DNA from: Geobacillus kaustophilus
Lineage (GTDB): Bacteria > Bacillota > Bacilli > Bacillales > Anoxybacillaceae
Assembly: GCF_000948285.1 (NCBI RefSeq)
Contig: NZ_JYBP01000003.1
Location: 3,162,001-3,226,000 of the forward strand
Direction of reading: 5' to 3'
Length of the DNA: 64,000 nt
The notes beneath the pieces are model-generated. The model did not search any database, was not told where the DNA came from, and worked only from the letters and a program-made list of their open reading frames with translations. Of this stretch, positions 4,257 to 51,730 are shown piece after piece. The translations under genes and the position numbers were made by a program. The first letter of the stretch is position 1. The number at the start of each line of letters is the position of its first letter.

Positions 4257-4396
4257 CTAGAGGGCTGGTGAAAAACGACCGATTTCGCCGAACCCGTTGC
4301 TTTCGGCTGAAAGAGAAGCGTTGATTTTACAGGATTTCTCAATTTGAGAAGAGATTCCGTTTTCCGCGACTTTTCACTAAATCACCAGCCTTCTAG
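4257..4396 (+). repeat. 140-bp terminal-inverted-repeat element, copy A1
   Basis: Ends are 15-bp inverted repeats with one mismatch: CTAGAGGGCTGGTGA at 4257-4271 and the complement of CTAGAAGGCTGGTGA at 4382-4396. Inside is a small palindrome TTTCTCAATTTGAGAA (4327-4345 region). The copy is head-to-tail with copy A2, sharing the CTAG at 4393-4396. Related copies lie at 6637-6775, 39450-39589, 50328-51718 (interrupted) and 28985-29056 (shortened). No reading frame of note. Confidence 0.75.
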
Positions 4397-4529
4397 AAGG
4401 CCAATGAAAAATGGCTGTCACGCGCAAATCAGCGGCATTTTTTAAAAAAAGTTGGTTCTACAAGGTTTCTCTAATTGAAAAACGGATAAGTTCAACGGTA
4501 TTTTGCAATACATCACCCGTCTTATATAG
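4393..4529 (+). repeat. 140-bp repeat family, copy A2, ending at the ribosome-binding site of the VOC gene
   Basis: A diverged second copy in tandem with A1. Its left end is CTAGAAGGCCAATGA, the interior carries ACAAGGTTTCTCTAATTGAA (matching the interiors of the copies at 6637 and 39450 on the opposite strand), and its right end TCACCCGTCTTATATAG runs directly into the AGGAGGAG that serves the gene starting at 4541. Confidence 0.6.
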
Positions 4530-4540
4530 GAGGAGTCGAC

Positions 4541-4936
4541 ATGCGTCTTGCCACGATTCACCATATCGCCATTATTTGCTCGGACTATGAGCGGTCGAAA
4601 CGATTTTACACTGAAATTCTCGGTTTTCGCCCCATCCGTGAGCAATACCGCGCCGAGCGCCGCTCGTACAAACTCGATTTAGAAGCGGACGGCGGCATTC
4701 AGATTGAGTTATTCTCCTTCGAACACCCGCCAAAGCGCCCAAGTTGCCCAGAAGCGTGCGGACTGCGCCATCTTGCTTTGGCGGTGGACAACCTCGATGA
4801 AGCCATTGCCTACTTGCGCCAACATGGCATCGATGCCGAACCCGTCCGCGTTGATGAAGCGACCGGAAAACGGTTCACCTTCTTCCATGATCCGGACGGG
4901 CTGCCGATCGAGCTGTATGAAAATCGAGCTGTATGA
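4541..4936 (+). CDS. VOC-fold metalloprotein (glyoxalase/bleomycin-resistance family)
   Basis: 131 residues covering one complete VOC domain of two beta-alpha-beta-beta-beta modules. Likely metal ligands are visible: the His in IHHIAI, Glu in QIELFSF, His in LRHLALAV and Glu in GLPIELYEN. The length and single-domain form resemble E. coli YaeR and Bacillus YwbC-like proteins, whose substrates are not settled. The ATG has ATAGGAGGAG just upstream, and two tandem repeat copies fill its leader. It is followed after about 100 nt by an oxidoreductase gene on the same strand. Confidence 0.85.
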   Translation: MRLATIHHIAIICSDYERSKRFYTEILGFRPIREQYRAERRSYKLDLEADGGIQIELFSFEHPPKRPSCPEACGLRHLALAVDNLDEAIAYLRQHGIDAEPVRVDEATGKRFTFFHDPDGLPIELYENRAV

Positions 4937-5040
4937 AAACTAGAGAGAAAAGCGCACTTGCTCAATGACGATGACAAAACGAAGCCCCTCCGTTAATTTA
5001 TGGTACAATGAGGGTCGATACGATCAAGGAGGGAAACAAT

Positions 5041-6027
5041 ATGGTGCGATTCGCGACAATCGGCACAAACTGGATCACCGAAGCGTTTATTGGCGCCGCG
5101 CAGCTCGTCGATTCCATTGAACTCGCCGCCGTCTACTCGCGGACGGAGGAAACAGCGAAGCGTTTTGCCGAGAAAGTCGGAGCGCCGCGCACGTTCACTG
5201 ATTTACACGAACTGGCGGGCAGCCCTGACATTGATGCGGTCTACATCGCGAGCCCGAACGCACTTCATGCCGAGCAGGCGATCTTGCTCATGAACCACGG
5301 CAAACACGTCTTATGCGAAAAACCGCTCGCCTCGAACGCCAAAGAAGTAAAGGCGATGATCGAAGCGGCCGAGCGAAACGGCGTCGTGTTGATGGAAGCG
5401 ATGAAAGCGACACTGCTCCCCACATCCCGGTCCATCCGCGAGCACTTGCCGAAACTCGGCCGCATCCGCCGTTATGTGGCGAGCTACTGCCAATATTCAT
5501 CGCGCTATGACGCCTATAAGCAAGGAACGGTGCTCAACGCCTTCAATCCGGCTTTTTCGAACGGAGCATTGATGGATATCGGCGTCTACTGCCTGTACCC
5601 GATGGTGGTGCTGTTTGGCAAGCCGAAGAGCCTCAAAGCACAAAGCCTCAAGCTTGAATCGGGGGTAGACGGCGAAGGAACAATCGTCTTCGACTACGGG
5701 GGGATGGATGGGATCGTCTTTTATTCGAAAATCGCCAATTCCTACTTGCCGGCGGAAATCCAAGGAGAAGAAGGAAGTATGATCATTGACGCCATCCATA
5801 CGCCGACCAAAGCGGAAATCCGCTACCGCGACGGGCGCGTCGAGGACATCACCGTCCCGCAAGACAAACCGCCGATGTATTACGAGGCGGAAGAGTTTAT
5901 CCGTCTCATCGAAAGCGGGGAACGGGAGTCGTCCATCAACTCACACCGCCATTCGCTTTGGACGATCGAAATCATGGACGAAGCGCGAAGACAAACCGGC
6001 ATCCTCTTTCCCGCCGACGAGCGATAA
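5041..6027 (+). CDS. Gfo/Idh/MocA-family oxidoreductase
   Basis: About 328 residues, the usual family size. The N-terminal Rossmann domain begins MVRFATIGTNWITEAFI, and the conserved CEKPLASNAKEV (catalytic lysine near residue 90) closes the nucleotide-binding domain; the C-terminal alpha/beta domain contains GALMDIGVYCLYP. Members use NAD(P) to oxidise or reduce sugars, inositols or trans-dihydrodiols; the overall look is close to the dihydrodiol dehydrogenase-like subgroup. The start at 5041 is chosen for its AAGGAGG at 5027-5034; an upstream in-frame ATG at 5008 has none. A hairpin terminator follows. Confidence 0.85.
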   Translation: MVRFATIGTNWITEAFIGAAQLVDSIELAAVYSRTEETAKRFAEKVGAPRTFTDLHELAGSPDIDAVYIASPNALHAEQAILLMNHGKHVLCEKPLASNAKEVKAMIEAAERNGVVLMEAMKATLLPTSRSIREHLPKLGRIRRYVASYCQYSSRYDAYKQGTVLNAFNPAFSNGALMDIGVYCLYPMVVLFGKPKSLKAQSLKLESGVDGEGTIVFDYGGMDGIVFYSKIANSYLPAEIQGEEGSMIIDAIHTPTKAEIRYRDGRVEDITVPQDKPPMYYEAEEFIRLIESGERESSINSHRHSLWTIEIMDEARRQTGILFPADER

Positions 6028-6034
6028 ACGAAAC

Positions 6035-6077
6035 GTTCCAACCGAGTCTGTACGCGGACCGGTTGGAACTCTTTTTT
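6035..6077 (+). terminator. Rho-independent terminator of the Gfo/Idh/MocA gene
   Basis: Stem GTTCCAACCG / CGGTTGGAAC (6035-6044 with 6060-6069) followed by CTTTTTT. Confidence 0.85.
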
Positions 6078-6186
6078 CAGGCGTTTTTTCTGCCTCATCG
6101 GATTCCGTTGATAAGCAAAACCAGTAGCGTGTATTTGCACCCAACCAAGGAGCTGAGGACCGAGCTCCTGACTGGAAACCACGGTG

Positions 6187-6624
6187 TCACCTTTTGCTAA
6201 AATACGGGCCAAGCCATCCGCTTTCGTGCGTGATGACAAACGTCCAGTTGAACTCGCTGTCCACCACGTATAGATCGATCTTGGCGTTTTCCGCTGCCAG
6301 ATCAGCGGCTTTCAAGACGGAAGCGTCCTCCACTTTGAACGCATCGTCACCATATTGAAAGAAAAGATAGCAGCACGTTTTCTCTTCTTGATCAAACGCC
6401 GTCTCCGCTTCTTCTTCCGTTAAACAGTCTCTCATTTTATAGCTGAACACATGCCATAAGTAGCCGTTGACTCCATTCCGATTATGAAGGTGGATGTGTT
6501 GTTTTTCTTCCGCAGTCAAATGGCCGGCAAACACCTTTTCCCACTGTTGTCGTAATTGCTCCCCGAAACCGGATTGTTTGCTGATTTTTATGTTTCGGCG
6601 AGCTAACTGATGAAATAACTCCAT
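6187..6624 (-). CDS. DUF4275-family protein
   Basis: 145 residues, a soluble protein with no membrane segment. The central YLWHVFSYKMRDCLTEEEAETAFDQ and the following CCYLFFQYGDD match my memory of DUF4275 proteins of Bacillaceae, whose role is unknown. A GGGAGAG ribosome-binding site precedes the ATG at 6624. Its leader is made almost entirely of a 140-bp repeat copy (6637-6775), so its promoter lies in or beyond the repeat. Confidence 0.65.
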   Translation of the reverse strand: MELFHQLARRNIKISKQSGFGEQLRQQWEKVFAGHLTAEEKQHIHLHNRNGVNGYLWHVFSYKMRDCLTEEEAETAFDQEEKTCCYLFFQYGDDAFKVEDASVLKAADLAAENAKIDLYVVDSEFNWTFVITHESGWLGPYFSKR

Positions 6625-6636
6625 TCGGTTTCTCTC

Positions 6637-6775
6637 CCAGAAGGTTGGTGATTTAAGGGGAAATGCTGCTCTCCAACAGTGTTTCTCAAATTGAAAAACC
6701 TTGCAACACCATAACTTCCTTCCTTACGATTTCGCACAAACCGAGCGAATCCGTTGTTTTTCACCAGCCTTCCAG
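6637..6775 (-). repeat. 140-bp repeat family, copy B, ending at the ribosome-binding site of the DUF4275 gene
   Basis: 139 bp with imperfect 15-bp inverted ends CCAGAAGGTTGGTGA (6637-6651) and TCACCAGCCTTCCAG (6761-6775). The interior TTTCTCAAATTGAAAAACC plus CTTGCAAC matches copies C and E. In the sense of the downstream minus-strand gene it starts with GGCTGGTGAAAAACAAC, nearly identical to copy A1 read on the plus strand. Confidence 0.7.
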
Positions 6776-6929
6776 GGACCTGATGCGGCGCCGCCTTCAT
6801 TGGTGTGCTCATTTCGTCTGTCAGAATGTGCGATGGATCGACAAGATGGCTTCTCACCATCTTTTTCGCGCCGAGCGGTTTTCGTCCGTTCAGCCACTTC
6901 CCTGTTTCCGTCCGCACTTCGATGAGCAA
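6776..6929 (-). other. Unassigned open stretch, possible gene fragment
   Basis: On the minus strand about 50 codons read LIEVRTETGKWLNGRKPLG and on to STPMKAAPHQ with codon use like coding sequence, then run into repeat copy B. There is an in-frame stop upstream and no convincing start. It may be the remnant of a gene cut by the repeat, or chance. I do not recognise it. Confidence 0.2.
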
Positions 6930-6978
6930 CTGCCGCGCACCCTATGCGCGACCGTTTCTGCGCCTTGCCGCCCCGTTC

Positions 6979-7398
6979 CTATTCGCCCGTCTCAGCAAAC
7001 CGGCGGAGGCGCGCGCCAATTTCATCGCGCACGCGGCGGAACACCGCGAGTTTCTCCTCTTCTGTCCCTTCCGCTTTCGCTGGATCGTCAAAGCCCCAAT
7101 GGACGCGCTTCACGTGCGGCGGAGTGACCGGACAATGGTCGGCCGCATGGCCGCACAGCGTCACGACCAAATCAGCACGGTTCAGCAAGTCCGGGTCGAT
7201 GACATCAGACGTTTGCTTCGAAATATCGATGCCGACTTCTTTCATCACCTTGACCGCATTCGGATTGAGCCCGTGCGCTTCAATCCCGGCGCTGTACACA
7301 TCCCATTCATCGCCTAACAGTTGTTTGGCCCAGCCTTCCGCCATTTGGCTGCGGCATGAGTTGCCTGTGCATAAGAAATAAATGATTTTTTTCTTCAT
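6979..7398 (-). CDS. arsC: Arsenate reductase, thioredoxin-coupled
   Basis: 139 residues of the low-molecular-weight tyrosine-phosphatase fold used by Bacillus and S. aureus pI258 ArsC. All three redox cysteines are present: Cys10 and Cys15 in the P-loop CTGNSCRS, and Cys82 and Cys89 in LCGHAADHC. It reduces arsenate to arsenite in the cytoplasm using thioredoxin, supplying the substrate of the neighbouring Acr3 pump. It is the last gene of arsR-acr3-arsC, 15 nt after acr3. Confidence 0.95.
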
Positions 7399-7413
7399 CG
7401 TTGATTCCCACCT

Positions 7414-8484
7414 TTATTTTGATTCTGGAGCAGCAGAGGAAAAATACTTTCGCTGAAACGCTAAAGCGACGTTGACAAGCGCGAGCATCACCGGCACTTC
7501 AATAAGCGGACCGATGACCGCCGCAAACGCCGCGCCCGAATGAATGCCAAACACCCCAACGGCGACGGCAATGGCCAGCTCAAAGTTGTTGCTTCCCGCC
7601 GTAAACGCGAGCGTCGTCGATACCGGGTAGCCGGCTCCCAATTTTTTCGCCAAAAAGAAGGAGACGAAAAACATCAAAACAAAATACAGCAACAACGGAA
7701 TCGCAATCCGGACGACGTCAAGCGGCAAGCTGACGATCATGTCTCCTTTGAGCGAAAACATCACGACAATCGTAAACAAGAGCGCAACGAGCGTCAGCGG
7801 GCTGATTTTCGGCACAAACACCGTTTCATACCATTGCCGCCCCTTCGCTTTCACAAGCACAAACCTTGTTGCCATGCCGGCCAAAAACGGAACCCCTAAG
7901 TACAGGAACACCGATTTTGCCACTTCCGTCATCGTGATGTTCACGACCGCCCCTTCAAGCCCGATCCACTCGGGAATCACCGTGACAAACACATACGCGT
8001 ACAGCGAGAAAAACACGACTTGAAAGAGCGAATTGAAAGCGACAAGCCCTGCCGCATATTCCGCATCGCCGCGCGCCAAATCGTTCCAGACGATGACCAT
8101 GGCGATGCAGCGGGCGAGGCCGATTAAAATCAAGCCGATCATATACTCCGGCTTATCCGGCAAAAAGACAATCGCCAAGATGAACATCAGCAGCGGACCG
8201 ATCACCCAGTTTTGCACGAGGGACAAAACGAGCACCTTCACATCTTTGAACACACGTCCCATTTCTTCGTAACGCACTTTCGCCAGCGGCGGATACATCA
8301 TCAAAATCAACCCGATCGCAATCGGAATCGAGGTTGTTCCGACTTGCAGGCGGTTCAGCCCATCCACCAGCCCCGGAGCCCAAATCCCGATTCCAATCCC
8401 AGCCGCCATCGCCAAAAAAATCCATACCGTCAAATACCGATCTAAAAACGACAACCGCTTCGGTTCGCAACAATCCATCATCAT
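7414..8484 (-). CDS. acr3: Arsenite efflux permease, ACR3 family
   Basis: 356 residues with about ten hydrophobic segments. The family hallmark cysteine in the fourth membrane helix is present ([20 protein letters not shown], about Cys126), as is the late [17 protein letters not shown] motif. It exports arsenite. Bacillus operons often call it arsB, though it belongs to ACR3 rather than the ArsB family. Three consecutive ATG codons occur at the start; the third (8476-8478) is better spaced from GGGGTG, so the true N-terminus may be two residues shorter. Confidence 0.93.
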
Positions 8485-8502
8485 TCACCCCGTTTGAAAA
8501 AA

Positions 8503-8850
8503 TCAGCACCCGCAGCGGAACGCCGGATTCGCTTCCTCGATTTTGCGAATGTTTTCGTCTTGATCGGGAACGTACGACAATATCGTTTGCAACAGCGAGT
8601 AGTATTCGCTTTGCGGACGGAGCGAATAATACACCCATTGCCCTCTCCGCTCCTCTTGGAGCAACCCGGCGTCTTTCAATTTGCGAAGATGCTGGCTGAT
8701 CGCCGGTTGGCTTGACGAAAACACTTCCATCAGCTCACACACACAGCACTCCCGCTTTTGTAAAATGGCTAAAATCGTCAGCCGCGTCGGATCGCCGAGC
8801 AGCTTCAACACCCGGGCTGTCGCTTCCATCTCCATTGCGAGTTGCGGCAT
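8503..8850 (-). CDS. arsR: ArsR-family arsenic-responsive repressor
   Basis: 115 residues with the winged-helix ArsR fold. The metalloid-sensing ECCVCEL motif sits at the start of the recognition region, and the recognition helix reads SQPAISQHLRKLKDAGL. An additional CGC at the extreme C-terminus (FRCGC) may contribute a thiol ligand. It is the first gene of the operon and is expected to repress its own transcription until arsenite binds. Operator-like AT-rich palindromes lie just upstream. Confidence 0.92.
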   Translation of the reverse strand: MPQLAMEMEATARVLKLLGDPTRLTILAILQKRECCVCELMEVFSSSQPAISQHLRKLKDAGLLQEERRGQWVYYSLRPQSEYYSLLQTILSYVPDQDENIRKIEEANPAFRCGC

Positions 8851-8871
8851 ATAACCCCTCCATTCATCATC

Positions 8872-8890
8872 ATATAATTATTTGCTTATA
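8872..8890. promoter_or_regulatory. Putative ArsR operator, proximal
   Basis: ATATAATTATTTGCTTATA, an imperfect palindrome 22 bp upstream of the arsR start codon. It is nearly the same sequence as the site at 8954-8975. Confidence 0.5.
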
Positions 8891-8953
8891 AAAAAACGAA
8901 CATACATCATGGAAACAGTCGCGCCGACCAACGAAATTGTTTCTGTCAATCAG

Positions 8954-8975
8954 TATATAATTAAATGCTTATATA
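8954..8975. promoter_or_regulatory. Putative ArsR operator, distal
   Basis: Perfect 7-bp arms TATATAA and TTATATA separated by 8 bp (TTAAATGC), about 105 bp upstream of arsR. Size and AT-rich arms suit an ArsR/SmtB dimer. Confidence 0.5.
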
Positions 8976-9079
8976 AGTCAATAACGATATACCTACAAAA
9001 GCAAGAAAAGCGAGCGTGCGGCATTTTTCCGCCGCACGCCCGCAAATGTTCCCTGCTCTCTGCCCGCCGCCAACACACT

Positions 9080-9463
9080 CTAGTCCATTCGTTTTTTCGC
9101 CGCCGACAACAGATCGATCGCCTTCGTCCCCACCCCGACAAACGTCTCCAAAATCGCCTGCGCCCCGGCGATCGAAAAAATAAAAATAAACGGCATTGCA
9201 ATTGTCGGGATGAATAAATACCCAAGCGCGAGAAACATCGCACTCCATACACCCGCGCACCAATAACAATTCAACAAATAACCAAATTTCGATTTCGGCA
9301 CTTTCTTGATTTCCGTACTCCCGTCCTCGTGTTGAATTTCCTCTTTTTTCATAAACGGATTGCGAATAAATTCAGTGATCTTATCAAAGACGATCAAATG
9401 GGTGAACCGGTAGCTGGCTAAAATGATCATGATGTACGTCATCCAGTCGAGTTTGTGAAGCAT
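9080..9463 (-). CDS. DUF1360 membrane protein
   Basis: 127 residues with a membrane segment at ~8-25 and a hydrophobic stretch at ~70-105 containing the family signature NCYWCAGVWSA. DUF1360 includes Bacillus subtilis YjcA, a protein reported as sporulation-linked. A charged loop (MKKEEIQHEDGSTEIKKVPKSK) separates the membrane parts. It stands alone between arsR and the end of the ribose operon. Confidence 0.75.
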   Translation of the reverse strand: MLHKLDWMTYIMIILASYRFTHLIVFDKITEFIRNPFMKKEEIQHEDGSTEIKKVPKSKFGYLLNCYWCAGVWSAMFLALGYLFIPTIAMPFIFIFSIAGAQAILETFVGVGTKAIDLLSAAKKRMD

Positions 9464-9621
9464 GGCGGACCCCTTTTTCCTATTTTTTCATTACATACGA
9501 ATGAAAAACATTTACTTTACGACTTCCTCTTATCGGACAAGCGTTCATCACGTTATGCTATTAGTAGTTATTTTTATCTGTTGGGGGAAATTTTATGTTG
9601 CCGTATGAAAGGATTTGGGAA

Positions 9622-9672
9622 ATTATAAAAAAACCCATGGTGCTAGTTGAGCACCAGAGCTCAACTAGCACC
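9622..9672 (-). terminator. Terminator of the rbs operon
   Basis: Perfect 14-bp stem GGTGCTAGTTGAGC / GCTCAACTAGCACC (9639-9652 with 9659-9672), then a run of T on the minus strand (9627-9633). Confidence 0.92.
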
Positions 9673-9690
9673 ACCGGATAAAATTCCATA

Positions 9691-23976: not shown

Positions 23977-23984
23977 TTTTCACC

Positions 23985-23996
23985 ATCCTTCTAGAC
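23985..23996 (-). repeat. End fragment of the 140-bp repeat family
   Basis: Together with the target duplication it reads TTTTCACCATCCTTCTAG, the right end of the 140-bp repeat (TTTTCACCAGCCTTCTAG). The ISL3 element entered exactly here; the rest of the repeat is absent and brnQ remnant follows on the other side. Confidence 0.45.
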
Positions 23997-26774: not shown

Positions 26775-28973
26775 CTACGGCCGGCGGATCAAACGAGCCG
26801 CCGATGCACGCACTCGCTCTTGAAGCGCGGACAGTTCTTTCTCCACCTTGTCCGGCCGCTCTTTCAGCGCTTGAAGCCACGGCTCCAAGTACGGAGAGAA
26901 AGCCGGCGGGTACGCGCGGGCAAGATCGCTCACCTTGCCGTTGCGATCCACCACGGCGATTATATACATGCCGGGCAAAAGATGCGGCTCTGCTCGCTCC
27001 GGAACATCCCATGTCACCGTTCGGTTATGGACAAGCCAATCAAGCACCGCTTTCCCCCGCTCTACGTACTTGACGCGGAAAAAGGAGAAATCAACGGAAA
27101 GAGGAACGGGCAAGCCAAACGAATGCGCAAATTGCCAAACCGCCAGTTTCTCATTAGCCTCGCCTCTCTCCGTTCCCCATTCATCCAGCAAAGCAAAACA
27201 ATGTTCCAATTCGCTTCTGACATCTTCCAAAACGGCGCAAACGGCTTTTCGATGCTTCGTTCCATAACGGCGATCCAGCCATCCGGCCAGCTCAGGAAGC
27301 ATATCAAGCGCTTGGCTCACTGCTTCCCATGGAAGCGAATTCCATCTTGTAGGGATTTGCTCGACGATGCATTGTTTCCAATCTTCTTCTCCTACGTCCC
27401 CCCACGATGAAAACGACCGGCCCTCCATATATTCGCACAGCAGCAGAACAACGAGCAAACATGTCTCTTTGATTTCTTCTGCTTTTTCATTCATGGCGAT
27501 TTCGTTATAAAACGTCAACAAGTCATCAGTGAAAAACATTCCTTCCCATTCCGTCCGGATCCACAATGTGTCGGTTTCTTCCGGACCAAGCCATTTCATT
27601 TTCCATAAGTCCGAAGAGCGGTGCGACGTATCAAACGGAGATAGAGGCAATCCATAACGGGAGCGAATGTGATTCACTCCTATGGACACCGGCAAATTCG
27701 CTCGTTCTTGCATGTTAAACAAATTGAATTCATACACTTTCAGCCACTCATCAACTTCTTGAACATGCCCTTCACGCGCCATTTCATGGGGGGTTTTCCC
27801 ATTCCATTGCTCATGCGGGACATGAAGGGCTTTTTCCAATTGAACGGCCAGCCCGGCCAGCGTCCCAGCCCAAGGAGGAGAGCCGGGCTCTGGATCAATA
27901 TGAAACGAAACGTTTTCTACCCCTTTGCGGCGCAAAATGCCTTCTGTCTGCCGTTTTCGTTCTTTTAGGGAATACCCGAACGCCCGCAGCAACGACACAA
28001 GCTGTTCGGCCGTTTGTTCCTTCTCAGTAGACAACACAAGCCGCGACCGATGAGCCGATAATGAACCGCCTAGTTCAAACACACGAATCGGTTCAGGGGA
28101 AAACAACCCGATATAATGGTACACATTGGTGCACCATGAACCTTCCACCTTTTCCCCATCGTCGTTGTCAATCTGAGCCCGTCCGATCGAAGCGAGCTTC
28201 CTCACTGCCTCAGCGGCTTCCTTACATTCATATTCATAAGTCCACCGCGTTCGTTCCTCTTGTACATCGTCTGGCATCGGGGGATAAGCTACATCGACGA
28301 TATCGAGAAAATGCTCAACGGCTACCTTGTCATATGGCCAGCCGGTTTGCGTCAACAAGGAGCGAATGTTCTCTTCCGCCCGTTCCACGCCCTTCGGATC
28401 AACAATCGATGATACACCACAAACATAATACCCGCCGTCAAATGGCTCCAAAAAGGCAAACATGCCGCCCCACGGACGAACAATCTCCAACGTCTCGCAA
28501 TACGGCATAAGGAGTCTCTCACCCGTCAGCCGGTCGATCGCCACTCCTCCTTCATCATGCAAATCGACAAATTGCACAAGGCGCGGCACAAGCCGAACCC
28601 AGCGGTCCAACATTTCCTTGAGTTCTGGAGACAGGCGACGCCCTTTTTCCTCTTGAAACCATTCAATGCCGCGCAATCCATTCGGATAACGATGGAGAAA
28701 AAAGCGCCAAAGCGTCTCAAACACCTTCAACTCTTCACGATGATCCTTTTGTTCGATCATTTGGCGAAACATACGGGTTACCGCTTCACGTTCATCATAA
28801 GACAGCGATTCATCCAAAAAACGCTGCACCATTTGCGACAGCTCATATTTTTGGTCAAAAAAGCGGCGCTGCCGCATCCGCTTGATTTCATGCTGCTGTT
28901 GTTTGTTCATGCAGCACTTCTTATACTTTTTCCCGCTTCCGCACGGGCACGGATCATTTCGACCGATCGACAT
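26775..28973 (-). CDS. Large SEC-C motif protein
   Basis: 732 residues. The extreme N-terminus is a SEC-C zinc motif, GRNDPCPCGSGKKYKKCC (residues ~4-21), as at the end of SecA and in YecA-like proteins. The remainder is soluble, rich in Trp, Glu and Arg, with no recognisable catalytic motif; a short ankyrin-like stretch (TPHEMAREGHVQEVDEW) occurs near 400. It has a paralogue-like neighbour with the same N-terminal motif. A shortened repeat copy forms its leader. Function unknown. Confidence 0.7.
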   Translation of the reverse strand: MSIGRNDPCPCGSGKKYKKCCMNKQQQHEIKRMRQRRFFDQKYELSQMVQRFLDESLSYDEREAVTRMFRQMIEQKDHREELKVFETLWRFFLHRYPNGLRGIEWFQEEKGRRLSPELKEMLDRWVRLVPRLVQFVDLHDEGGVAIDRLTGERLLMPYCETLEIVRPWGGMFAFLEPFDGGYYVCGVSSIVDPKGVERAEENIRSLLTQTGWPYDKVAVEHFLDIVDVAYPPMPDDVQEERTRWTYEYECKEAAEAVRKLASIGRAQIDNDDGEKVEGSWCTNVYHYIGLFSPEPIRVFELGGSLSAHRSRLVLSTEKEQTAEQLVSLLRAFGYSLKERKRQTEGILRRKGVENVSFHIDPEPGSPPWAGTLAGLAVQLEKALHVPHEQWNGKTPHEMAREGHVQEVDEWLKVYEFNLFNMQERANLPVSIGVNHIRSRYGLPLSPFDTSHRSSDLWKMKWLGPEETDTLWIRTEWEGMFFTDDLLTFYNEIAMNEKAEEIKETCLLVVLLLCEYMEGRSFSSWGDVGEEDWKQCIVEQIPTRWNSLPWEAVSQALDMLPELAGWLDRRYGTKHRKAVCAVLEDVRSELEHCFALLDEWGTERGEANEKLAVWQFAHSFGLPVPLSVDFSFFRVKYVERGKAVLDWLVHNRTVTWDVPERAEPHLLPGMYIIAVVDRNGKVSDLARAYPPAFSPYLEPWLQALKERPDKVEKELSALQERVRASAARLIRRP

Positions 28974-28984: not shown

Positions 28985-29056
28985 CCTTCTAATCTTTCCT
29001 TTTCAAAACGTCGATCAATGCCGCACATCAAATGGTTGTTTTTCACCAGCCTTTTA
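28985..29056 (-). repeat. 140-bp repeat family, shortened copy D
   Basis: In the sense of the minus-strand genes it begins CTAAAAGGCTGGTGAAAAAC (overlapping the stop codon of the upstream SEC-C gene) and continues with CAACCATTTGATGTGCGGC, then reaches the GGGAGG ribosome-binding site of the next SEC-C gene. About 70 bp of the interior is missing relative to copies A-C. Confidence 0.5.
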
Positions 29057-30343
29057 GATGAAGCCCCGATCGGTGAACATCTCCCACGCTAAATCGCGGA
29101 GCTCCTCGCGCAATTCTTTTTCATTCACTCCCTCAAGCAGCCCTTCTTTCCGCCACGAACGGATGGCTCGATCAATATGACGGTTGACTCGCTTCTCGTC
29201 CCATCCTTCACGCATCAACATAAGATCCATGTCATCGATCCATTCATCGATGCGCGCATCGAGCTCATCCCCGTCCTCTTCGAACCAGTCTTCCTCCCAG
29301 TCATCGAGCCATTCCTCGTCGTCTTCATCATCGACAGCCATCAGGAAAAACTCCAACGCCGCCGACCGCACATCTTGGGACATCACGTCATACCGATCGG
29401 CAATGTCTTCCACATCCGATCCTTCTGCCTTCATCAAATGACCGGCCACATGGCGGAGCGCCGCAGCGTAGACGGGAACAGAATAAGGAAGGCGGGACGT
29501 TTTTCCGCAATAGAGCGCCCATATGGCGAAAGCTTGATTGAGCAGCGCCGCTGGCGCCTCCGGCTCGTTTTCATCCAGCTCGCGAATGACGTCGGCTTGT
29601 TTCGGATCATCCCATTTGAACTGTTTGGCAAACTGCCAAAGCCACTCCAGCAACATGGCGGAAAACACATCAACAAACTGATAACCCATCCATGAAGCCG
29701 CCGACTGACCGCTCCACTCCGCTTCTTTTTGAATCGCCCGAAGCAATCGCTCTTTCCCTGATGCTGGGAACGGAAACACCGTCGTGAAATACGTGAACAC
29801 TTCCTGGTACGGGACAAGGAAGCCGAACACCGCATCCCCTTTTTCGATCACGTTCGGCCATTGATAGGAAGCCAATAAATGGACGTTCCTTTCCTCTCCC
29901 GTCAACAAATCCCGGACAACGGGGCGATTTTCATCATCATAGCCGATGAACTCGCCAAGCGACGGAACGGCTCCTTCCCACCTCTCGATGTGAGCTTGAA
30001 CGGACGAGCGCCACCGCTCCCAATGACGGCTTTTCCGGTAAGCGGAAAAGATCGTTTGTCCTGTTTCATCAAGCGGCCAACAAAACAACATCCAGTTCAC
30101 CGCCATGATCTGCACGCCAAGCTCGAGTTCCTCCGGCATCTCTTCAAGCGGGAACTGGCCCAAAAGTTCTTCCGCCTCCCTCTCATACCGCTGCAAGACA
30201 AACTGACGCATATCATTCATGCATTCGATCAACTCACGGTCAATCAACGACGCAATCGACACCGCCTCTTTTTTTCCACAACAATGCTTGTACTTTTTTC
30301 CGCTTCCGCACGGACATGGTTCGTTTCGCGGCACTGCCGCCAT
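29054..30343 (-). CDS. SEC-C motif protein
   Basis: 429 residues. N-terminal zinc motif PRNEPCPCGSGKKYKHCC, then a helical, acidic protein with a strongly acidic run near residue 340 (DDEDDEEWLDDWEEDWFEED) and an arginine-rich C-terminal part. It shares with its neighbour the plan of a SEC-C head plus a long body, and the two may have a common origin. It lies upstream of that neighbour on the same strand, about 80 nt apart. Function unknown. Confidence 0.7.
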   Translation of the reverse strand: MAAVPRNEPCPCGSGKKYKHCCGKKEAVSIASLIDRELIECMNDMRQFVLQRYEREAEELLGQFPLEEMPEELELGVQIMAVNWMLFCWPLDETGQTIFSAYRKSRHWERWRSSVQAHIERWEGAVPSLGEFIGYDDENRPVVRDLLTGEERNVHLLASYQWPNVIEKGDAVFGFLVPYQEVFTYFTTVFPFPASGKERLLRAIQKEAEWSGQSAASWMGYQFVDVFSAMLLEWLWQFAKQFKWDDPKQADVIRELDENEPEAPAALLNQAFAIWALYCGKTSRLPYSVPVYAAALRHVAGHLMKAEGSDVEDIADRYDVMSQDVRSAALEFFLMAVDDEDDEEWLDDWEEDWFEEDGDELDARIDEWIDDMDLMLMREGWDEKRVNRHIDRAIRSWRKEGLLEGVNEKELREELRDLAWEMFTDRGFI

Positions 30344-38540: not shown

Positions 38541-39433
38541 TTATTTTCCCTCTTCCTCCGCCTCCATAAGCTCATCGAGCACACGGTTGATAGAAGATGA
38601 TGCTTCATCGATCGCCTTAACAAATTAATCCGCTCGATGAACTGTTCTGTTAAAACATCGAGTTGCTGCGAGTTAATATCTTGCAACTGATCAGATAACG
38701 CGGCAACTAAACTTCTCCCCGCAGGAATAAAAATGGATGTTTTCGAATCGCCAAACACGTCATCAATCGATGTCTTCACGGTTTCCAAAACACTCTGTTG
38801 GCGCGCTTTCCAAGAGGAGACATTCCAAAAGTCATCCAACCGTTGTTCTTGGTATTGCATCTCCTTTTTCATCTGAACAATATGTTTAAAGGTTTCTAAA
38901 ATATCCCTTTTCAACGAATCGCTAAAGTGGATTTGTACATAACCGTCTTTTAAATCAAGACGAACAAACTTTCCAGCACCATACTCATAACGAATATGAA
39001 ACGGTTTCATATGTTTTGTCGTGCCAAAGTATCCAACAAACTTTCTCCGAAGACGTTTATTGAATTCAAAAAATGGGTTATTTTCTTCCATTTGACGGAA
39101 TGGCTCTTCACCACAAAGTGTACTTGACAAATAAAGACGATCATGATAGAGAAAATCAAAACAGCGTTTTTCCTTTTAATACCATACGTCTCTTTGAGCA
39201 ACAAACATTGCTATCATGTTTGTCTTTAAAAGTCAAGTACATCTTTTGGTGATGAACCGACGGAATGAAATTAAATAATCTACCCATTCATCGAGAATTG
39301 ATTGGAAGAAGAAGATAAGTTTACTAATCGTACTTTTTCCGCTCGCTTGGGGGCCGACCAAAATCGTAACATCGGTAATCTCCTCCTCAAACAGCTCGAC
39401 AGGTCCAAAATGCTCGATCCGGATGCGAGGCAT
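38541..39433 (-). pseudogene. AAA ATPase, broken by a MITE and an internal deletion
   Basis: The ATG at 39431-39433 follows GGGAGGAGGG. The N-terminus MPRIRIEHFGPVELFEEE runs into Walker A GPQASGKST (~29-37). At residue ~56 a 157-bp MITE (39102-39258) is inserted; removing it and one target copy restores the frame (SFRQMEENNPFFEF). The body contains SIFIPAGRSLVAAL, then a frameshift after FIERIN joins to AIDEASSSINRVLDELMEAEEGK. Walker B is missing, so an internal deletion is likely. An SMC/OLD-like ATPase partner of the ExK protein. Confidence 0.75.
39102..39258. mobile_element. 157-bp MITE derived from the second ISL3 type
   Basis: Ends GGCTCTTCACCACAAAGTGT and, complemented, GGTTCATCACCAAAAGATGT are the ends of the ISL3 element at 22642-23976; the inverted repeats extend about 50 bp inward. 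No transposase. An 8-bp target duplication GACGGAAT flanks it (39094-39101 and 39259-39266). It interrupts the ATPase gene. Confidence 0.92.
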
Positions 39434-39449: not shown

Positions 39450-39589
39450 CTAGAGAGCCATTGATGAAATGAAAATTTTGACTTGATAACAGCTTTTTTC
39501 AATTTGAGAAACTTTGCAAAATCCATTTTTTCTCTGGTTGAGAACTACCAATTTACAGCGAACGACTGTTTTTTCACCACTCTTGTAGG
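39450..39589 (-). repeat. 140-bp repeat family, copy C, ending at the ribosome-binding site of the ATPase gene
   Basis: 140 bp. Ends CTAGAGAGCCATTGATGA (39450-39467) and TCACCACTCTTGTAG (39575-39589). The interior TTTTTCAATTTGAGAAAC plus TTTGCAAA matches copies B and E. Its 3' end in the gene's sense joins directly to the GGGAGGAGGG of the ATPase gene. Confidence 0.6.
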
Positions 39590-39677: not shown

Positions 39678-39799
39678 CTATATTAGGTTGTAATAAAGAA
39701 ATTTCCGATCTCCATGTCCCGTCTTTATCACCTGACAAGCTGACACGGTGACAAGAAGAGCGAACAATGCCATGTAAAACAAAATTGCAACTTATATAG
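39678..39799. repeat. 122-bp inverted-repeat element, family 2, copy 1
   Basis: Left end CTATATTAGGTTGTAATAAA and right end TTGCAACTTATATAG are imperfect inverted repeats. The ends and the GATGTAAAACAAAATT-like right part match the 122-bp element at 60018-60139; the centres differ. It lies just after galU. Confidence 0.65.
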
Positions 39800-46226: not shown

Positions 46227-46230
46227 TGAC

Positions 46231-46314: not shown

Positions 46315-46343
46315 TTGACAATTAATATTTGTAACGTTACAAT
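46315..46343 (+). promoter_or_regulatory. Promoter of the divergent lacI-type gene
   Basis: TTGACA (46315-46320), 17-bp spacer, TACAAT (46338-46343). The operator TTGTAACGTTACAA overlaps the -10. Confidence 0.75.
46329..46342. promoter_or_regulatory. LacI-type operator, autoregulatory
   Basis: Perfect 14-bp palindrome TTGTAACGTTACAA inside the promoter of the regulator gene. Confidence 0.75.
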
Positions 46344-46382
46344 ACCGTTCCGTATATAATATATTTTTTTCCGGAGGTTTGC

Positions 46383-46415
46383 ATGTCTTTCATTTTCACA
46401 AGGAGGTATACTTGA
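46383..46415 (+). CDS. Possible 10-residue leader peptide ahead of the LacI regulator
   Basis: CCGGAGG precedes ATG; the peptide reads MSFIFTRRYT and stops inside a direct repeat. It lies in the 210-nt leader between the regulator promoter and its gene. Could be chance. Confidence 0.3.
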   Translation: MSFIFTRRYT

Positions 46416-46488
46416 ACTAAAGAAAGCAAGAAACCAAACGCCGCGAAAGCGGAAACAACCTTCAAGATTTCGATGTATACTTGAACTA
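46406..46488. repeat. Direct repeat in the regulator leader
   Basis: GTATACTTGAACTA occurs at 46406-46419 and 46475-46488, with similar AGAAA-rich sequence after each copy. Confidence 0.6.
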
Positions 46489-46554
46489 TGAGAAACGAGA
46501 AATCGCAATTGTCGCCCTTGTCGGCAAAAAATAGCGAACAAGTGGAGGTAGTGC

Positions 46555-47568
46555 ATGAAAAAACGCGTCACCATGCAAGACATCGCCGATCGATTGAACA
46601 TTTCCAAAAACTCGGTCTCTCAAGCGCTGCGCGGCAAAGAAGGGGTCAGTGAGGAAACGAGGGAACTTGTGAAGCGCGTGGCCAAAGAAATGGGGTATGA
46701 ATATCCCGCCTCCCGCGCGAAATCGCGCGGCAAACCGCCGAAACAAATCGCGCTCATCGCCTCCGACCGCACGTTTTCATTGAAATTTTTCGGCGAAATT
46801 TATTTAAGCATTGAACAGGAAGCACTGTCACGCGGCATGAAGCTGCACATCCAATCGGTGAACAAAGAGCAAAAAGAACAGCTTCTTTTGCCTTCGTTCA
46901 TCGAGGAAAAACAAGTCGACGGGGTGATCGTCCTTTCCCATATCAGCACCGAGTACATTCAACAAATCATCGCCACGGGCATCCCGACCGTCCTTGTCGA
47001 CCATCACCACCCGAACATTCCAGCCGATGCGGTGCTGACGAACAATCGGTTCGGAGCGTATGCCGCCGTCCAGCATCTTCTCGAGCTGAACCATACCGAC
47101 ATCGCGTTTGTCGGCGACATCAACTACTCGCCGAGCTATCAAGAACGGTATGAAGGGTACTTATTGGCGTTGAAAGACTATGGGGTGAAACCGAACGAGG
47201 AGTGGATGTTCCGCCACGCGCAAGAGGACGAGACCGCCATCGCGAGCTACATCCGCGGACTGAAACATCAGCCGACCGCCTGGTTTTGCGTCAACGACGG
47301 ACTTGGCTTTTTCGTCACCACCGCCCTGCAACAATACGGACTAAAAGTGCCCGATGACGTTTCCGTCTGCAGTTTTGACAACGGCCAGCTGTCGCAAATC
47401 GCGACGCCGAAAATCACGACTGTTGACATCGACCTGAAGCGCTACGGCAAACGAGCAGTGGAGCTTTTGCTCTGGCGTTGGGACAACCCGAATGAACCAT
47501 TTCAAGAAGTGTTATTGTCCACAAAACTAATCAAGCGGGAATCAACAGCAGCGAAACAGAAGCGCTAG
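46555..47568 (+). CDS. LacI-family transcriptional regulator of the oligosaccharide operon
   Basis: 337 residues. Helix-turn-helix start MKKRVTMQDIADRLNISKNS then VSQALRGKEGVSEETRELV; hinge region and PBP-type ligand domain follow (VDHHHPNIPADAVLTNNRFG, VPDDVSVCSFDNGQLSQI). It is divergent from the SBP operon and shares a ~470-bp region with two matching operators, so it most likely represses both the operon and itself until the sugar binds. AGTGGAGGTAG precedes the ATG. Confidence 0.9.
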   Translation: MKKRVTMQDIADRLNISKNSVSQALRGKEGVSEETRELVKRVAKEMGYEYPASRAKSRGKPPKQIALIASDRTFSLKFFGEIYLSIEQEALSRGMKLHIQSVNKEQKEQLLLPSFIEEKQVDGVIVLSHISTEYIQQIIATGIPTVLVDHHHPNIPADAVLTNNRFGAYAAVQHLLELNHTDIAFVGDINYSPSYQERYEGYLLALKDYGVKPNEEWMFRHAQEDETAIASYIRGLKHQPTAWFCVNDGLGFFVTTALQQYGLKVPDDVSVCSFDNGQLSQIATPKITTVDIDLKRYGKRAVELLLWRWDNPNEPFQEVLLSTKLIKRESTAAKQKR

Positions 47569-47593
47569 GGCGGGGCCGGCCTTTTGCCCCGCC
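47569..47593 (+). terminator. Terminator after the LacI regulator
   Basis: Stem GGCGGGG / CCCCGCC right after the stop codon. Confidence 0.7.
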
Positions 47594-47627
47594 TGTTTGC
47601 CCAAGACGTTCGGTGATTTATTTCCAT

Positions 47628-48480
47628 TCACTTGGAGTTGCCTTGTTTCATTTCCTCAATCTCTGTCACAGGCAATCCGGTCAGTTCGTGAATCGTTTGC
47701 GCATCAACCCCTTTCATCAACATCCGTTTCGCAATTTGCCGTTTTTCTTGTTTGGCTCCTTCTTCCCGCCCTTCGATTTTTCCCTTTTGCTCGTAAGAAA
47801 TGATGAATTCCAACACCTGTTCTTTTTCCTTCGCCTTCATTTGCTCCACCTCGTTTCGCAATTGTTGTTCTTCCTCATCGGACAATTTGACATACGTTTC
47901 AAAAAAGCCGATCAGCAGACGCTGCCTTGCCTTGTCTAGCTCGAGACGCACCAACATGCGCAAAAATTGCTTTTTCAGTTCCACTCGTTCATCTTCAGTA
48001 TAGCCCATTTTGCCAAGCAGCGCAGCCGCCACCGGATTGTCGGTGCGGAGAAACTGGCGCCAGTTTTGCTTGCGTAGCTCCACAGAGAAAAAGTGAAAGT
48101 CAAGCACATCACCAAACGGAAAAGAGAGCGTGAACGAGGAGGGTTCGTTGCGGATGGCATCATAGCTGAAAACAGCAATCGGAATGATCGGCGTGCGGTA
48201 TTTCTCAAACAAGCGGCTGAAGTAAAGAAACATTCGCTCCGGAGGACTGATTTTCCACGTGAACAATGATCACCCCATCTTCCCCTTTGAACTTCGTTTT
48301 CACCAGCAAGTCTACCCGATACTTCTCCCCAGCCGTTACGTCCGTAAACAACTCTTCGGACAAAAACGACAAACGGCTGAAATCGATATGCTCGTGCATA
48401 TCCGGGAAAAAGAGAAGCACAAATTCCTCAAAAAACGTCTGCAGCAGCTCCTTGAACAACCGGTCGTGATCGATCGCCAT
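47628..48480 (-). pseudogene. Rpn-family recombination-promoting nuclease, frameshifted
   Basis: N-terminal half MAIDHDRLFKELLQTFFEEF to the core VDLLVKTKFKGEDGVIIVHVEN (Asp...Glu of a PD-(D/E)xK core), then a one-base shift near 48245 and the second half SPPERMFLYFSRLFEKYRTP to the coiled C-terminus with KIEGREEGAKQEKRQIAKRM. Joined, it would be ~283 residues, normal for Rpn/YhgA-like proteins. The break lies between the nuclease core and the rest, so the gene is probably dead. Confidence 0.8.
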
Positions 48481-48659
48481 ACATTCACCTCACATGAATA
48501 GGTTTCGTATTTTCTTTTTCGACACCATCAGGCAAAATCCTGTCCATGGCACAAAAAATGGTCGTCTCGTTTCGAGAAGAGACAACCAAGACACCAGCTA
48601 CAAATGTGCAGTCTTCTCCGTTTCACCACTTGCACGCGCGACACCGAAGCAGAGCGACT

Positions 48660-49595
48660 TTACCACATCCCCGCCTTTCTTCCGCCCCCCACCGCCTTCG
48701 CCCGGCGGAAGCGGGCGCTCATGTCATCCATCCCCCCGCTGCCAAACATCACACCAACGACGATGAACAGAAATCCAGCCAGCTGCATCCATGAAATCGG
48801 CTCGCCAAGCAGCCAATGCGCCCCAAGAAGCGAAAAGAGCGGATTCAAATTAATGAACACCGCTGACTCGGCGGGGCCGAGGTGCTGCACAGCATGGTTG
48901 TAAAACATATGGCCAAGCGCCGTCGCCACGACCGCCGAAGCAAGGAAAATGAGCCAAAGTGGCGGCGTGCCCTCTTTCAAACTCGATAGGCCGCTCGGCT
49001 CGAGGACGAGGCTTAAGACAAACAGCCAAAGCGACCCGAAGACGAGCATCCACCCGGTCATCACCCGCGCCTCGACCGTCGCCTTTTTGATCATAATGAA
49101 GCTGATCCCTTGCGCCAAGACGGCTAAAAAGACATACACATCCCCGATGGACAAATGGCCGAGGCCGCCGTCGCCGTTTGCGACGACAAACACGACGCCA
49201 AAAAACCCGAGCGCGATGCCAAGCAAACGAAACAACGTCGGCCGCTGGCCCAAAAACACAATCGCCAACAGCGCCGTCACAAGCGGCACAAGCCCTAACA
49301 CAAGACCCGCATTCACCGCCGTTGTCTTCGTCAACCCAACGGCAAGGAAAAAGTGGTGGGCGACGACGCTAAACAAAGCGGCCAAGCCGATCTGTTTCGC
49401 CTCCTTCCAACCGACTTTTTGAAGCTTGCCGATCCCCCATAAAAACAAAAGCACGACCAACCCGGCCGTTAGAATGCGCAGCGCCGTCAACGCGACGGGC
49501 GAAAAATGCTCTACAAGAATTTTTAACGCCGTCACGTTCAATCCCCAAGCAACCATGATGGCGACCAGCAGCGCATAAATGGATGATTTCCGCAT
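48660..49595 (-). CDS. EamA/DMT-family transporter
   Basis: 311 residues with ten predicted membrane helices in two EamA repeats (first ~5-135, second ~150-290). Typical motifs: MVAWGLNVTALKILVEHFSP, then HHFFLAVGLTKTTAVNAGLV and the second-repeat GHMFYNHAVQHLGPAESAVF. Members export amino acids or other metabolites; the substrate is unknown. Confidence 0.9.
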   Translation of the reverse strand: MRKSSIYALLVAIMVAWGLNVTALKILVEHFSPVALTALRILTAGLVVLLFLWGIGKLQKVGWKEAKQIGLAALFSVVAHHFFLAVGLTKTTAVNAGLVLGLVPLVTALLAIVFLGQRPTLFRLLGIALGFFGVVFVVANGDGGLGHLSIGDVYVFLAVLAQGISFIMIKKATVEARVMTGWMLVFGSLWLFVLSLVLEPSGLSSLKEGTPPLWLIFLASAVVATALGHMFYNHAVQHLGPAESAVFINLNPLFSLLGAHWLLGEPISWMQLAGFLFIVVGVMFGSGGMDDMSARFRRAKAVGGGRKAGMW

Positions 49596-49836
49596 CGTTC
49601 TCTACCTCTCCTGCATACTCTGTTTTCAGCGGAACGCCAAAGGAAAAACGGAGCCGATTTACGCTCCGCTTAACTAGAGAAAAAGCACCCTGCAAGCAAA
49701 GATACTCGTTCTGCTTTCCCTCTCCTGCCATCTATTGTACTACATCACCGCCCATTTTTTGACGAAAATGCACGTTCTCTTCCCCATATTCCCGACCGTC
49801 TTGGCATATCATCGTACCAAGAGAGGAGAGAGGCTG

Positions 49837-50331
49837 ATGTTCCCACGCTACCGACAAAAGAAGATCGCCGCAAGGACAGCTGTTCTCGTTTTGGTCCTCG
49901 CCGCCGTTTGCGCCATCGTGCTGTCATTCGTTCTTTCGAGCGAACGCCGCGATGCAAGGCAAGTCGTCGAAACGTTTTACCACTACGAACAAGCAGGGGA
50001 TTTTGGCAGCTCGTGGGAGCTGTTTCACCCGCTGATGAAAAAGAAATTCCCAAAAGACGTCTACATCCAACGCCGCGCTCATGTCTTTATGCAAGATTTC
50101 GGCGCGAAAACGTTCGAATACCGCATCGATGACATCGAGTCGTTGCCTTCATGGTCGATGTCTGATAGAAGCAAGCCGCTCAAAAACGTCTACCGCGTCC
50201 GCGTCATCCAGACGTTCCATAGCGCCTTTGGCGTGTTCGAGATTCATCAAGATGTATTTGTCGCTAAGGAGAAAGGGGAATGGAAAATCCTGTTCCCTTA
50301 CAACTCAAAGCGGTCTGCTTTCTCACACTAG
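49837..50331 (+). CDS. Membrane-anchored protein of unknown function
   Basis: 164 residues from the ATG at 49837 (AGAGGAGAGAGG upstream). A basic N-terminus, one membrane helix (~14-32, AVLVLVLAAVCAIVLSFVL), then an extracellular domain with FYHYEQAGDFGSSWELFHPL that looks like an NTF2-like/DUF4878 fold. Its stop codon TAG is part of the left end (CTAG) of a repeat copy, so the last residues may have been altered by the repeat. Confidence 0.65.
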   Translation: MFPRYRQKKIAARTAVLVLVLAAVCAIVLSFVLSSERRDARQVVETFYHYEQAGDFGSSWELFHPLMKKKFPKDVYIQRRAHVFMQDFGAKTFEYRIDDIESLPSWSMSDRSKPLKNVYRVRVIQTFHSAFGVFEIHQDVFVAKEKGEWKILFPYNSKRSAFSH

Positions 50332-50431
50332 GAAGCTGGTGACGGCTGCTTCCCTCCAATCAGCCGTGCCCGACTGGAGGGAAGAACAAAGTTTTCCAGG
50401 CTTCTCAAGTTGAGAAACAACCTTGCGAAAC

Positions 50432-51680
50432 CACGAGTGTTGATTATCCAAAATTATACATACGCCTTCCATAAATTTGGGCATACTCAAACAAAGCAGC
50501 GGCCATCCCGGATTTCCAATCGAGAGGAAGCTGCCCAGAGAAAAAACGGCGAACGAACGAAATGAAGGAAAGAGAGACGTTCGTCTGTTTTTTGGTTTGA
50601 TCATACAGCCATCGCAGCAACACATACGCGATGAACGCCGCAAACAGTTGGTTGTATACCGCATTTTCCGTCGTGCCAAACAAGGTCGGGACATTCAGAT
50701 ATTGCTTCACCCAACGGAAAAAGACCTCAACAGTCCAACGTTGTTGGTACATGTCGGCAATGGTTTCCGCAGACGCATGGAAGAGGTTCGTCACGACCCG
50801 AATGTCGCGGCCATTCGCATCTCGAAAGATCACCACCCGGTGACGCTTGGTGGAGCGGCATTGTTTCGTCCCCAACTGGCACGTGAAGTCGGCTTGAACC
50901 GATGAGGATGTGCTGGAAAGGCGTTTCAAGCTTTTTTTCTGATGAAGTTCGATGTTGTCCTTCATCCGAATGACAAAGAGCTGATGCTGCTCCACAAATC
51001 GATCGAGGCGTTCGATTTTGAAATACGCCCGGTCTTCCACCAGCACTTGTTGAGCGTTCGTCAACTGTTCTCCCACCGGGCCATCATGACGCAGTCCGAT
51101 GGTTTCCACCACGTCTGCCGGCAACGAGGATTCCGGCGAATACGCGACGTGCAGCTTCACTCCGGCGCGTTCGCCGTGATACGGCGCCCATGGCAGGCGG
51201 TTTTTCCCGACCGTGACGGTCGTCGAATCCACCACCCGAAGCGGTTTGGGAAACCGAAGCGAACGGCGGGTTTGGCGGTTGCACTTGGAAATGATCAACG
51301 CCAACAAGCGTTTCATGATGTCATAGGGAACTTCTTTCGCTTTCTTGGATACAGTTGAATAATGGAATCGCGGCAATCCATACAGAGGCCCCACATCGGC
51401 TCCGTGGCGAAAGCTTTTCCATTGATGCATGGCGGCCAGCAGGAAGAAGTGAATCAACTCGCGCAACGCAAAGGTTCGAGACGAATCACGATACCCAACC
51501 GCTTCGGCAATCAGTTGAATCTCTTCATCCGAAACAAGTTTTTGCATCAAATTCGGGAGTGTGGTATGCTTGTTCATAGAGAGCACCTCCTGGGTTTGTT
51601 TGTGTCGCTACTCACATTCTACAGGAAAGGTGCTCTTTTTTCTATACCCTTTGGATTTTATTGGATAATCAACACGCCTG
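50432..51680 (-). mobile_element. Complete IS4-family insertion sequence
   Basis: 1249 bp with 18-bp ends CACGAGTGTTGATTATCC and, complemented, CAGGCGTGTTGATTATCC (2 mismatches) and a 9-bp target duplication TTGCGAAAC (50423-50431, 51681-51689; a tenth base C also matches). Confidence 0.88.
50444..51577 (-). CDS. IS4-family transposase
   Basis: 377 residues from the ATG at 51575-51577, which has AGGAGGTG 8 nt upstream; a GTG 9 nt earlier is inside that site. DDE core: RVVDSTTVTVGKNRLPWAPY (first Asp), VLVEDRAYFKIERLD (second) and the YREK box YQQRWTVEVFFRWVKQYL. Uninterrupted, so potentially active. Confidence 0.93.
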   Translation of the reverse strand: MNKHTTLPNLMQKLVSDEEIQLIAEAVGYRDSSRTFALRELIHFFLLAAMHQWKSFRHGADVGPLYGLPRFHYSTVSKKAKEVPYDIMKRLLALIISKCNRQTRRSLRFPKPLRVVDSTTVTVGKNRLPWAPYHGERAGVKLHVAYSPESSLPADVVETIGLRHDGPVGEQLTNAQQVLVEDRAYFKIERLDRFVEQHQLFVIRMKDNIELHQKKSLKRLSSTSSSVQADFTCQLGTKQCRSTKRHRVVIFRDANGRDIRVVTNLFHASAETIADMYQQRWTVEVFFRWVKQYLNVPTLFGTTENAVYNQLFAAFIAYVLLRWLYDQTKKQTNVSLSFISFVRRFFSGQLPLDWKSGMAAALFEYAQIYGRRMYNFG

Positions 51681-51730
51681 TTGCGAAACCGCATTTTTCT
51701 TACATCACCATCTCTCTTTCCCACGGCTCG

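Follow-up and report, generated by a model that had tools for sequence, protein, structure and literature searches.

Why do several copies of a ~140-bp repeat in a 64-kb stretch of the Geobacillus kaustophilus genome (contig NZ_JYBP01000003.1, positions 3,162,001 to 3,226,000; hereinafter, the window, i.e., the whole stretch of DNA analyzed) end next to the ribosome-binding sites of downstream genes? The first-pass annotation, made from the sequence of the window, offered two answers: a mobile element that is highly selective in its target or a leader RNA that controls translation. With a probability of about 0.95, the repeats represent a family of non-autonomous transposons, namely miniature inverted-repeat transposable elements (MITEs), with the same ends and the same kind of target as a larger insertion sequence (IS) of sister Geobacillus species. 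A literature search found no paper naming this family, which adds a member to a known class of elements.

Anatomy, target and distribution of the repeat family

The consensus body of the element is about 131 bp long, i.e., within the 50-500 bp size range of MITEs and too small for a transposase gene. In the canonical orientation, it starts with AAGGCYGGTGATTTAATG, includes TTTCTCAAATNGAGAAACCTTGCAA in the middle and ends with TGTTTTTCACCAGCCTT. The terminal inverted repeats read AAGGCYGGTGA, and the interior is asymmetric. In the alignment of 171 copies, columns 5-15 pair with the opposite end in 107 to 170 copies per column, and pairing drops to 6 copies at column 16, which sets the length of the terminal inverted repeat at 11 bp.

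The four outer base pairs on each side are a target-site duplication of a YTAR-like sequence. The two tetramers are identical as direct repeats in 92 of the 134 full-length copies. Among the 90 copies with tetramers other than CTAG/CTAG, 48 are equal in direct orientation (CTAA in 18, TTAG in 14, ATAG in 6, CTAT in 4, CCAG in 3, and three singles), compared with a mean of 12.2 and a maximum of 22 in shuffles, and a single pair is equal as reverse complements, the self-palindromic TTAA. A second set gives 63 equal pairs out of 94, with 20 direct and 4 reverse-complement matches among the 51 non-CTAG pairs. The top covarying columns of the alignment reflect the same duplication: the first-ranked pair, 1/137 (CC, TT, AA; z 13.0), and the third, 4/140 (GG, AA; z 9.0), are identities and not base pairs. 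As a correction to the original observation, the outer CTAG is the target duplication and not part of an inverted repeat. Tandem copies, e.g., those at 4257 and 4393, have a single CTAG in common, as expected if a new copy enters the CTAG beside an older one.

Comparison of strains with and without individual copies, which the first-pass annotation called for, revealed precise empty sites. The flanks of the 6637 copy are joined at a single tetramer in seven relatives (genomes G002, G003, G005, G006, G011, G012 and G013), CCAG in five loci and CCTG in two; BLAST placements concur and indicate that G008 and G009 probably also lack the copy. The 4257/4393 pair is also found in G009 and G010, and G002 has space for a single copy. 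Among the matches listed, the 39450 copy occupies the corresponding position in G000 and G007, the flanks of this site are 42-85 bp apart in G009, G010, G011 and G013, with no room for a copy, and G006 and G012 carry longer, different inserts. The family is, accordingly, both multi-copy and polymorphic among relatives, as is characteristic of MITEs, and the precise empty sites could be used as strain markers.

In the complete host genome, the end motif of the element occurs 56 times with at most 2 mismatches, compared with 3 occurrences of the reversed control, and a sequence-only model (R1) built from 18 copies yields 70 matches at E<=0.1 in 3.68 Mb. The family is present in 18 of the 61 genomes searched. 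These include all 14 of the genus, each of the 13 besides the host having at least 26 matches (with no more than 53 candidates scored in any genome). The remaining 4 belong to the 47 genomes that lie outside the genus and have 1-5 matches each. A search of plasmid and phage collections with one MITE copy as the DNA query gave no match. Under laxer settings (E<=1e-4), G012, G013, G003 and G008 contain 54, 57, 72 and 116 matches, respectively, so that the family accounts for a large class of Geobacillus intergenic repeats in these four relatives. The host has 50 matches at the same threshold, and the surplus in G008 suggests a species-specific expansion.

The partner insertion sequence

A 432-bp element of the host genome with MITE-like ends holds the start of a transposase gene and is an internally deleted IS derivative. 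The protein fragment of this element leads to IS copies in sister species that are 1535-1555 bp long, have the same 11-bp ends and, in most cases, contain a single long open reading frame (ORF). Judging by these features, the ~1.54-kb IS is apparently intact and autonomous in the sister species and is a likely mobilizing element. Relatives of this IS are found in G. proteiniphilus, G. jurassicus, G. icigianus and, as partial matches, G. thermocatenulatus. The protein encoded by one copy (P0001, 489 aa) contains DUF772 and DDE domains. The best NCBIfam model is IS1182 (NF033551), with 229.9 bits against a curated cut-off of 270, followed by IS5_4, with 105.8 bits against a cut-off of 140, and no IS5 model reaches its cut-off; a protein with 99.6% identity, from a Geobacillus genomosp. 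3 plasmid record, is annotated as IS5 family. By these scores, the partner IS appears to fall between the IS1182 and IS5 families. A 4-bp target of the YTAR type is a feature of the IS5 family, and the partner IS resembles that family in having equal flanking tetramers, CTAG, CTAA or ATAG, in 8 of 11 copies.

The likeness between the MITE and the IS extends beyond the terminal repeats: AAGGCTGGTGATTTAATG at the left (L) end of the MITE matches AAGGCCGGTGAATTAATG at the right end of the IS, and AAGGCTGGTGAAAAA at the right (R) end of the MITE matches AAGGCCGGTGAAAAA at the left end of the IS. An IS copy in G007 (locus L278) and a MITE copy in G003 (locus L149) occupy an identical CTAG site with identical flanks; the flank may itself be repeated, so replacement of one element by the other, in either direction, is not claimed. 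Under the scheme that best accommodates these observations, the transposase of the ~1.54-kb IS would act in trans, recognizing AAGGCYGGTGA together with adjacent bases, excise or copy the MITE, and insert it where CTAG-like tetramers have been cut with a 4-bp stagger.

Several points weigh against this interpretation. The flanking tetramers are unequal in 42 of the 134 MITE copies and in 3 of the 11 IS copies (L272, L276 and L279). Short-word matches between the MITE interior and the IS concentrate at the ends, so that origin of the MITE by simple internal deletion of the IS is not demonstrated. The family is probably a type II MITE, a kind that has sequence in common with an IS mainly at the ends. 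An N-terminal search detected no intact IS in the host, where all three places identified are truncated or partial, even though none of the relatives compared has the 6637 copy. With only decayed IS copies among those found, the host MITEs may be immobile now.

The tandem arrays, the palindromic ends and the fact that no copy is called inside a gene are also compatible with a palindromic repeat that is not moved by a DDE transposase, such as a repetitive extragenic palindrome or bacterial interspersed mosaic element (REP/BIME). The 4-bp duplication, the empty sites, the IS with the same ends, and the single CTAG common to tandem copies, which nested insertion predicts, make this explanation exceedingly improbable. 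Thus, of the two original proposals, the mobile element with a sharp target is the one that these data bear out, the sharp target being the tetramer rather than the ribosome-binding site.

In the partner IS, the transposase frame lacks a stop codon of its own and runs across the inverted repeat. The frame stays open as far as the right end in nine copies (L272, L273, L274, L276, L278, L279, L280, L289 and L290, in the last of which the IS occupies positions 1009-2549), and in all nine the target tetramer supplies the stop codon, TAG or TAA. A similar stop-less transposase has reportedly been described for IS870 of Agrobacterium; the papers found in a literature search do not mention IS870. Separately, eleven other host matches with 36-38% identity to the transposase piece (e.g., at C3:448376, C3:931914 and C3:1701452), ten of which fall in ORFs longer than 500 codons and one (245 codons) in the window at about 59764-59898, point to a distinct multi-copy transposase family.

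Copies in the window and their placement beside genes

The presence of the repeat family in the window (Table 1) is confirmed by motif excess, with 9 occurrences of the end motif TCACCAGCCTTCTAG (at most 3 mismatches) versus 0.75 expected and 10 occurrences of the interior motif (5 places, both strands) versus 0.46 expected, as well as by matches to the sequence-only model. The copy at 50328 was correctly recognized as interrupted by an IS, which is flanked by the 10-bp duplication TTGCGAAACC (50423-50432 and 51681-51690) inside the MITE. The supposed ATPase gene downstream of the 39450 copy, in contrast, is only a fragment that is severed by a second, 157-bp repeat at 39103-39258. The copies adjacent to the VOC, DUF4275, SEC-C and ATPase-fragment genes end 12-16 bases upstream of the start codon (13 in the case of the 4393 copy and the VOC gene), with the same element end facing the gene.

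Table 1. Features of the window relevant to the repeat family
Feature	Coordinates	Strand	Details	Basis
Full MITE copy	4257-4396	-	CTAG target duplication at 4257-4260 and 4393-4396	Model match (4257-4392), flank tetramers
Older MITE copy	4393-4527	-	CTAG 4393-4396 in common with the 4257 copy; other flank tetramer now ATAT	Model match (4393-4526)
VOC/glyoxalase-family gene	4541-4936	+	Downstream of the 4393 copy	PF00903
DUF4275 gene	6187-6624	-	Beside the 6637 copy	
Full MITE copy	6637-6775	+	CCAG target duplication	Model match (6638-6774)
Isolated MITE end remnant	23980-23994	+	Beside an apparent part of the 157-bp repeat family	
SEC-C motif protein gene	26775-28973	-	Adjoins the truncated MITE	PF02810
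Truncated MITE	28988-29057	+	Model positions 73-139	Weak model match (17.9 bits, E 4.9e-4)
ATPase-like gene, 5' fragment	39259-39433	-	GPQASGKS taken as P-loop	By eye
Diverged full MITE copy	39450-39588	+		Model match
R-end part of interrupted MITE	50328-50432	-		Model match (50328-50435)
IS inside MITE	50433-51680	-	DDE_Tnp_1 transposase ORF 50444-51586	
L-end remainder of interrupted MITE	51681-51718	-		By eye

Placement was analyzed in 273 copies, 56 from the host and 217 from relatives. The host set consists of the copies or fragments that remain from 71 matches after removal of 15, which were either weak or mere opposite-strand echoes of palindromic copies; for the relatives, the 51 weakest of 158 matches were dropped, and 110 matches from lax-filter searches (170 and 129 matches) were used, namely, those inside the examined loci and not yet counted. 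By flank similarity, 225 copies are independent, and 216 of these have genes on both sides. Genes were called with our own hexamer gene finder, which missed the ATPase fragment at 39259-39433; with this fragment included, the host count of 7 L ends at most 50 bp from a start would rise by one.

Among the 216 independent copies, the L end faces a gene start and the R end a gene end in 70 cases, and the reverse holds in 56; both ends face gene ends in 50 cases and gene starts in 40. Of the 176 start-facing ends, 20 (14 L and 6 R; p 0.115) lie no more than 50 bp from a start, compared with 69 of the 198 stop-facing ends (31 L and 38 R) that are equally close to a stop. For the host alone, the start-proximal numbers at this distance are 7 L and 0 R (p 0.016, uncorrected and derived in part from the starting observation), and for all 273 copies, not made independent, 20 L and 7 R (p 0.019). 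Near stops, R ends outnumber L ends within 200 bp when duplicates in relatives are retained (91 versus 59; p 0.011), and the numbers for independent copies are 89 and 70 (p 0.153). L ends may be slightly in excess near starts, but not significantly so among independent copies. Nor is there a clear excess of the target at ribosome-binding sites: a YTAR tetramer ends 10-19 bp upstream of 12% of the 157 starts that bear a Shine-Dalgarno (SD) sequence, compared with 5-15% in each 10-bp bin at distances of 30 bp or more.

Gene starts are, therefore, not preferred, and the orientation that the four window copies share does not extend to the family as a rule. The original observation of placement at ribosome-binding sites stands for these four copies but not as a property of the family, and for the most part reflects coincidence in this window. 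A copy inserted directly upstream of an SD sequence could leave the latter intact, because the 4 bp are duplicated, and be tolerated; tolerated insertions, together with chance, would account for the placement in the window. A position so striking need not signal regulation.

A cis-acting leader RNA, riboswitch-like or an attenuator, that governs translation of the downstream gene would fit the position and shared orientation of the four window copies, as well as the L-end excess in the host and in the full set of 273 copies. Some structure is indeed predicted: single foldings of eight copies give z from 0.24 to -5.4, two below -4, as the inverted-repeat ends permit, and three random sets of 10 copies show a terminal stem on both strands, which the inverted repeats must produce, and interior stems on the reverse strand. 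However, RNAalifold finds 0 consensus pairs in sets of 18 copies, 49 copies, and 60 copies on either strand, and 0 and 3 pairs in the set of 171. When the terminal stem and the interior palindrome are scored on 49 copies, 85.9% of the cells are paired versus 86.3% in shuffles, and the covariation score is 0.137 versus 0.142 (377 of the 500 shuffles are as high); slid controls of these stems show lower pairing, as expected for a structure derived from the consensus. The stems thus exist as sequence, without compensatory change. A search of the window against Rfam gave no match.

The relatives provide no support for a leader either. The start codon and an SD-like sequence of the DUF4275 gene are present at the empty sites, i.e., the start region of this gene lacks the copy in seven relatives. 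The VOC-side copy is conserved no better than the VOC coding sequence in five relatives (identity of the copy versus that of the coding sequence: 123/133 vs 359/382 in G010, 113/131 vs 351/383 in G002, 101/123 vs 352/383 in G005, 101/123 vs 348/383 in G012, and 67/86 vs 352/383 in G011). With large sets devoid of a consensus structure, covariation not above that of shuffles, ends near stops outnumbering those near starts, and no orientation rule among independent copies, the leader RNA is rejected as very improbable.

Another possibility is that the repeats are MITEs, one subfamily of which carries an outward promoter at the L end, some of the start-proximal copies being kept because they drive the downstream gene. 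Promoter-like pairs scoring at least 9/12 are directed toward the L end in 34 of the 171 copies, compared with a shuffle mean of 10.8 and a maximum of 17, and toward the R end in only 3; TTGAGA with TATTTT accounts for 18 of the 34. The 4393 copy contains TTGAAA-18-TATTTT reading toward the VOC gene, and the 14 versus 6 L-end bias near starts is in the same direction. However, the copies are related, so that the 34 do not represent 34 independent events; at 10/12 or above, only 1 of the 171 copies remains versus a shuffle mean of 1.3; 9/12 is reached by 3 of the 17 start-proximal L-end rows listed; and the bias is not significant among independent copies. On balance, this possibility is unlikely, and nothing other than the promoter-like motif hints at a regulatory effect. 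The stronger version, in which a sigma-A-like promoter would fire outward from the L end of this subfamily and insertions near SD sequences, feasible just upstream thanks to the 4-bp duplication that spares the SD, would have repeatedly rewired expression across species and selected for the L-end excess, is similarly doubtful.

Two further repeats were noticed near the 39450 copy of the MITE. The 157-bp inverted-repeat element at 39103-39258 has arms of ~48 nt and a 9-bp duplication, GACGGAATG; it is found in at least 21 further host places, with 89-100% identity, and is missing from this site in loci of four relatives. A third repeat, ~121 bp, at 39678-39799, has at least 5 further host places with 95-98% identity, and a copy was identified by eye inside a MITE of the Geobacillus family in locus L007.

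Comparison with known systems

Prokaryotic MITEs, as outlined in passages of a review (PMC10969869), are 50-500 bp long, have terminal inverted repeats and are mobilized in trans by the transposase of an IS; the Geobacillus family is alike in size and ends, and the partner IS would be the source of its transposase. It differs in being centred on Geobacillus. Another likeness, by description only, is to bcr1, which is restricted to one group of Bacillales and is, as is the Geobacillus MITE, a mobile short repeat of such a group. The bcr1 element belongs to the Bacillus cereus group and is named as a MITE in the relevant passage of the source (PMC3733652). Correia elements of Neisseria, according to the same review passages, are MITEs often located beside genes, with outward promoters reported (PMC10969869); those promoters were shown experimentally, whereas the Geobacillus MITE has the motif only.

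The partner IS shares the combination of DUF772 and DDE domains with the IS1182 and IS5 families, with scores under both curated cut-offs. It is unlike IS1272, which is placed in the IS1182 family and is described as replacing palindromic targets without duplication (PMC5678879), in that the partner IS has a target duplication. In the genus itself, G. kaustophilus HTA426 has active ISs of the IS4, IS701, IS1634 and ISLre2 families, with 4-9-bp duplications (PMC8024623); the terms 'MITE' and 'IS1182' do not occur in the main text of that paper. These ISs move within the genus and, like the partner IS, have short duplications, but the families differ. Together, the Geobacillus MITE and its partner IS represent a compact system for testing mobilization in trans in thermophiles.

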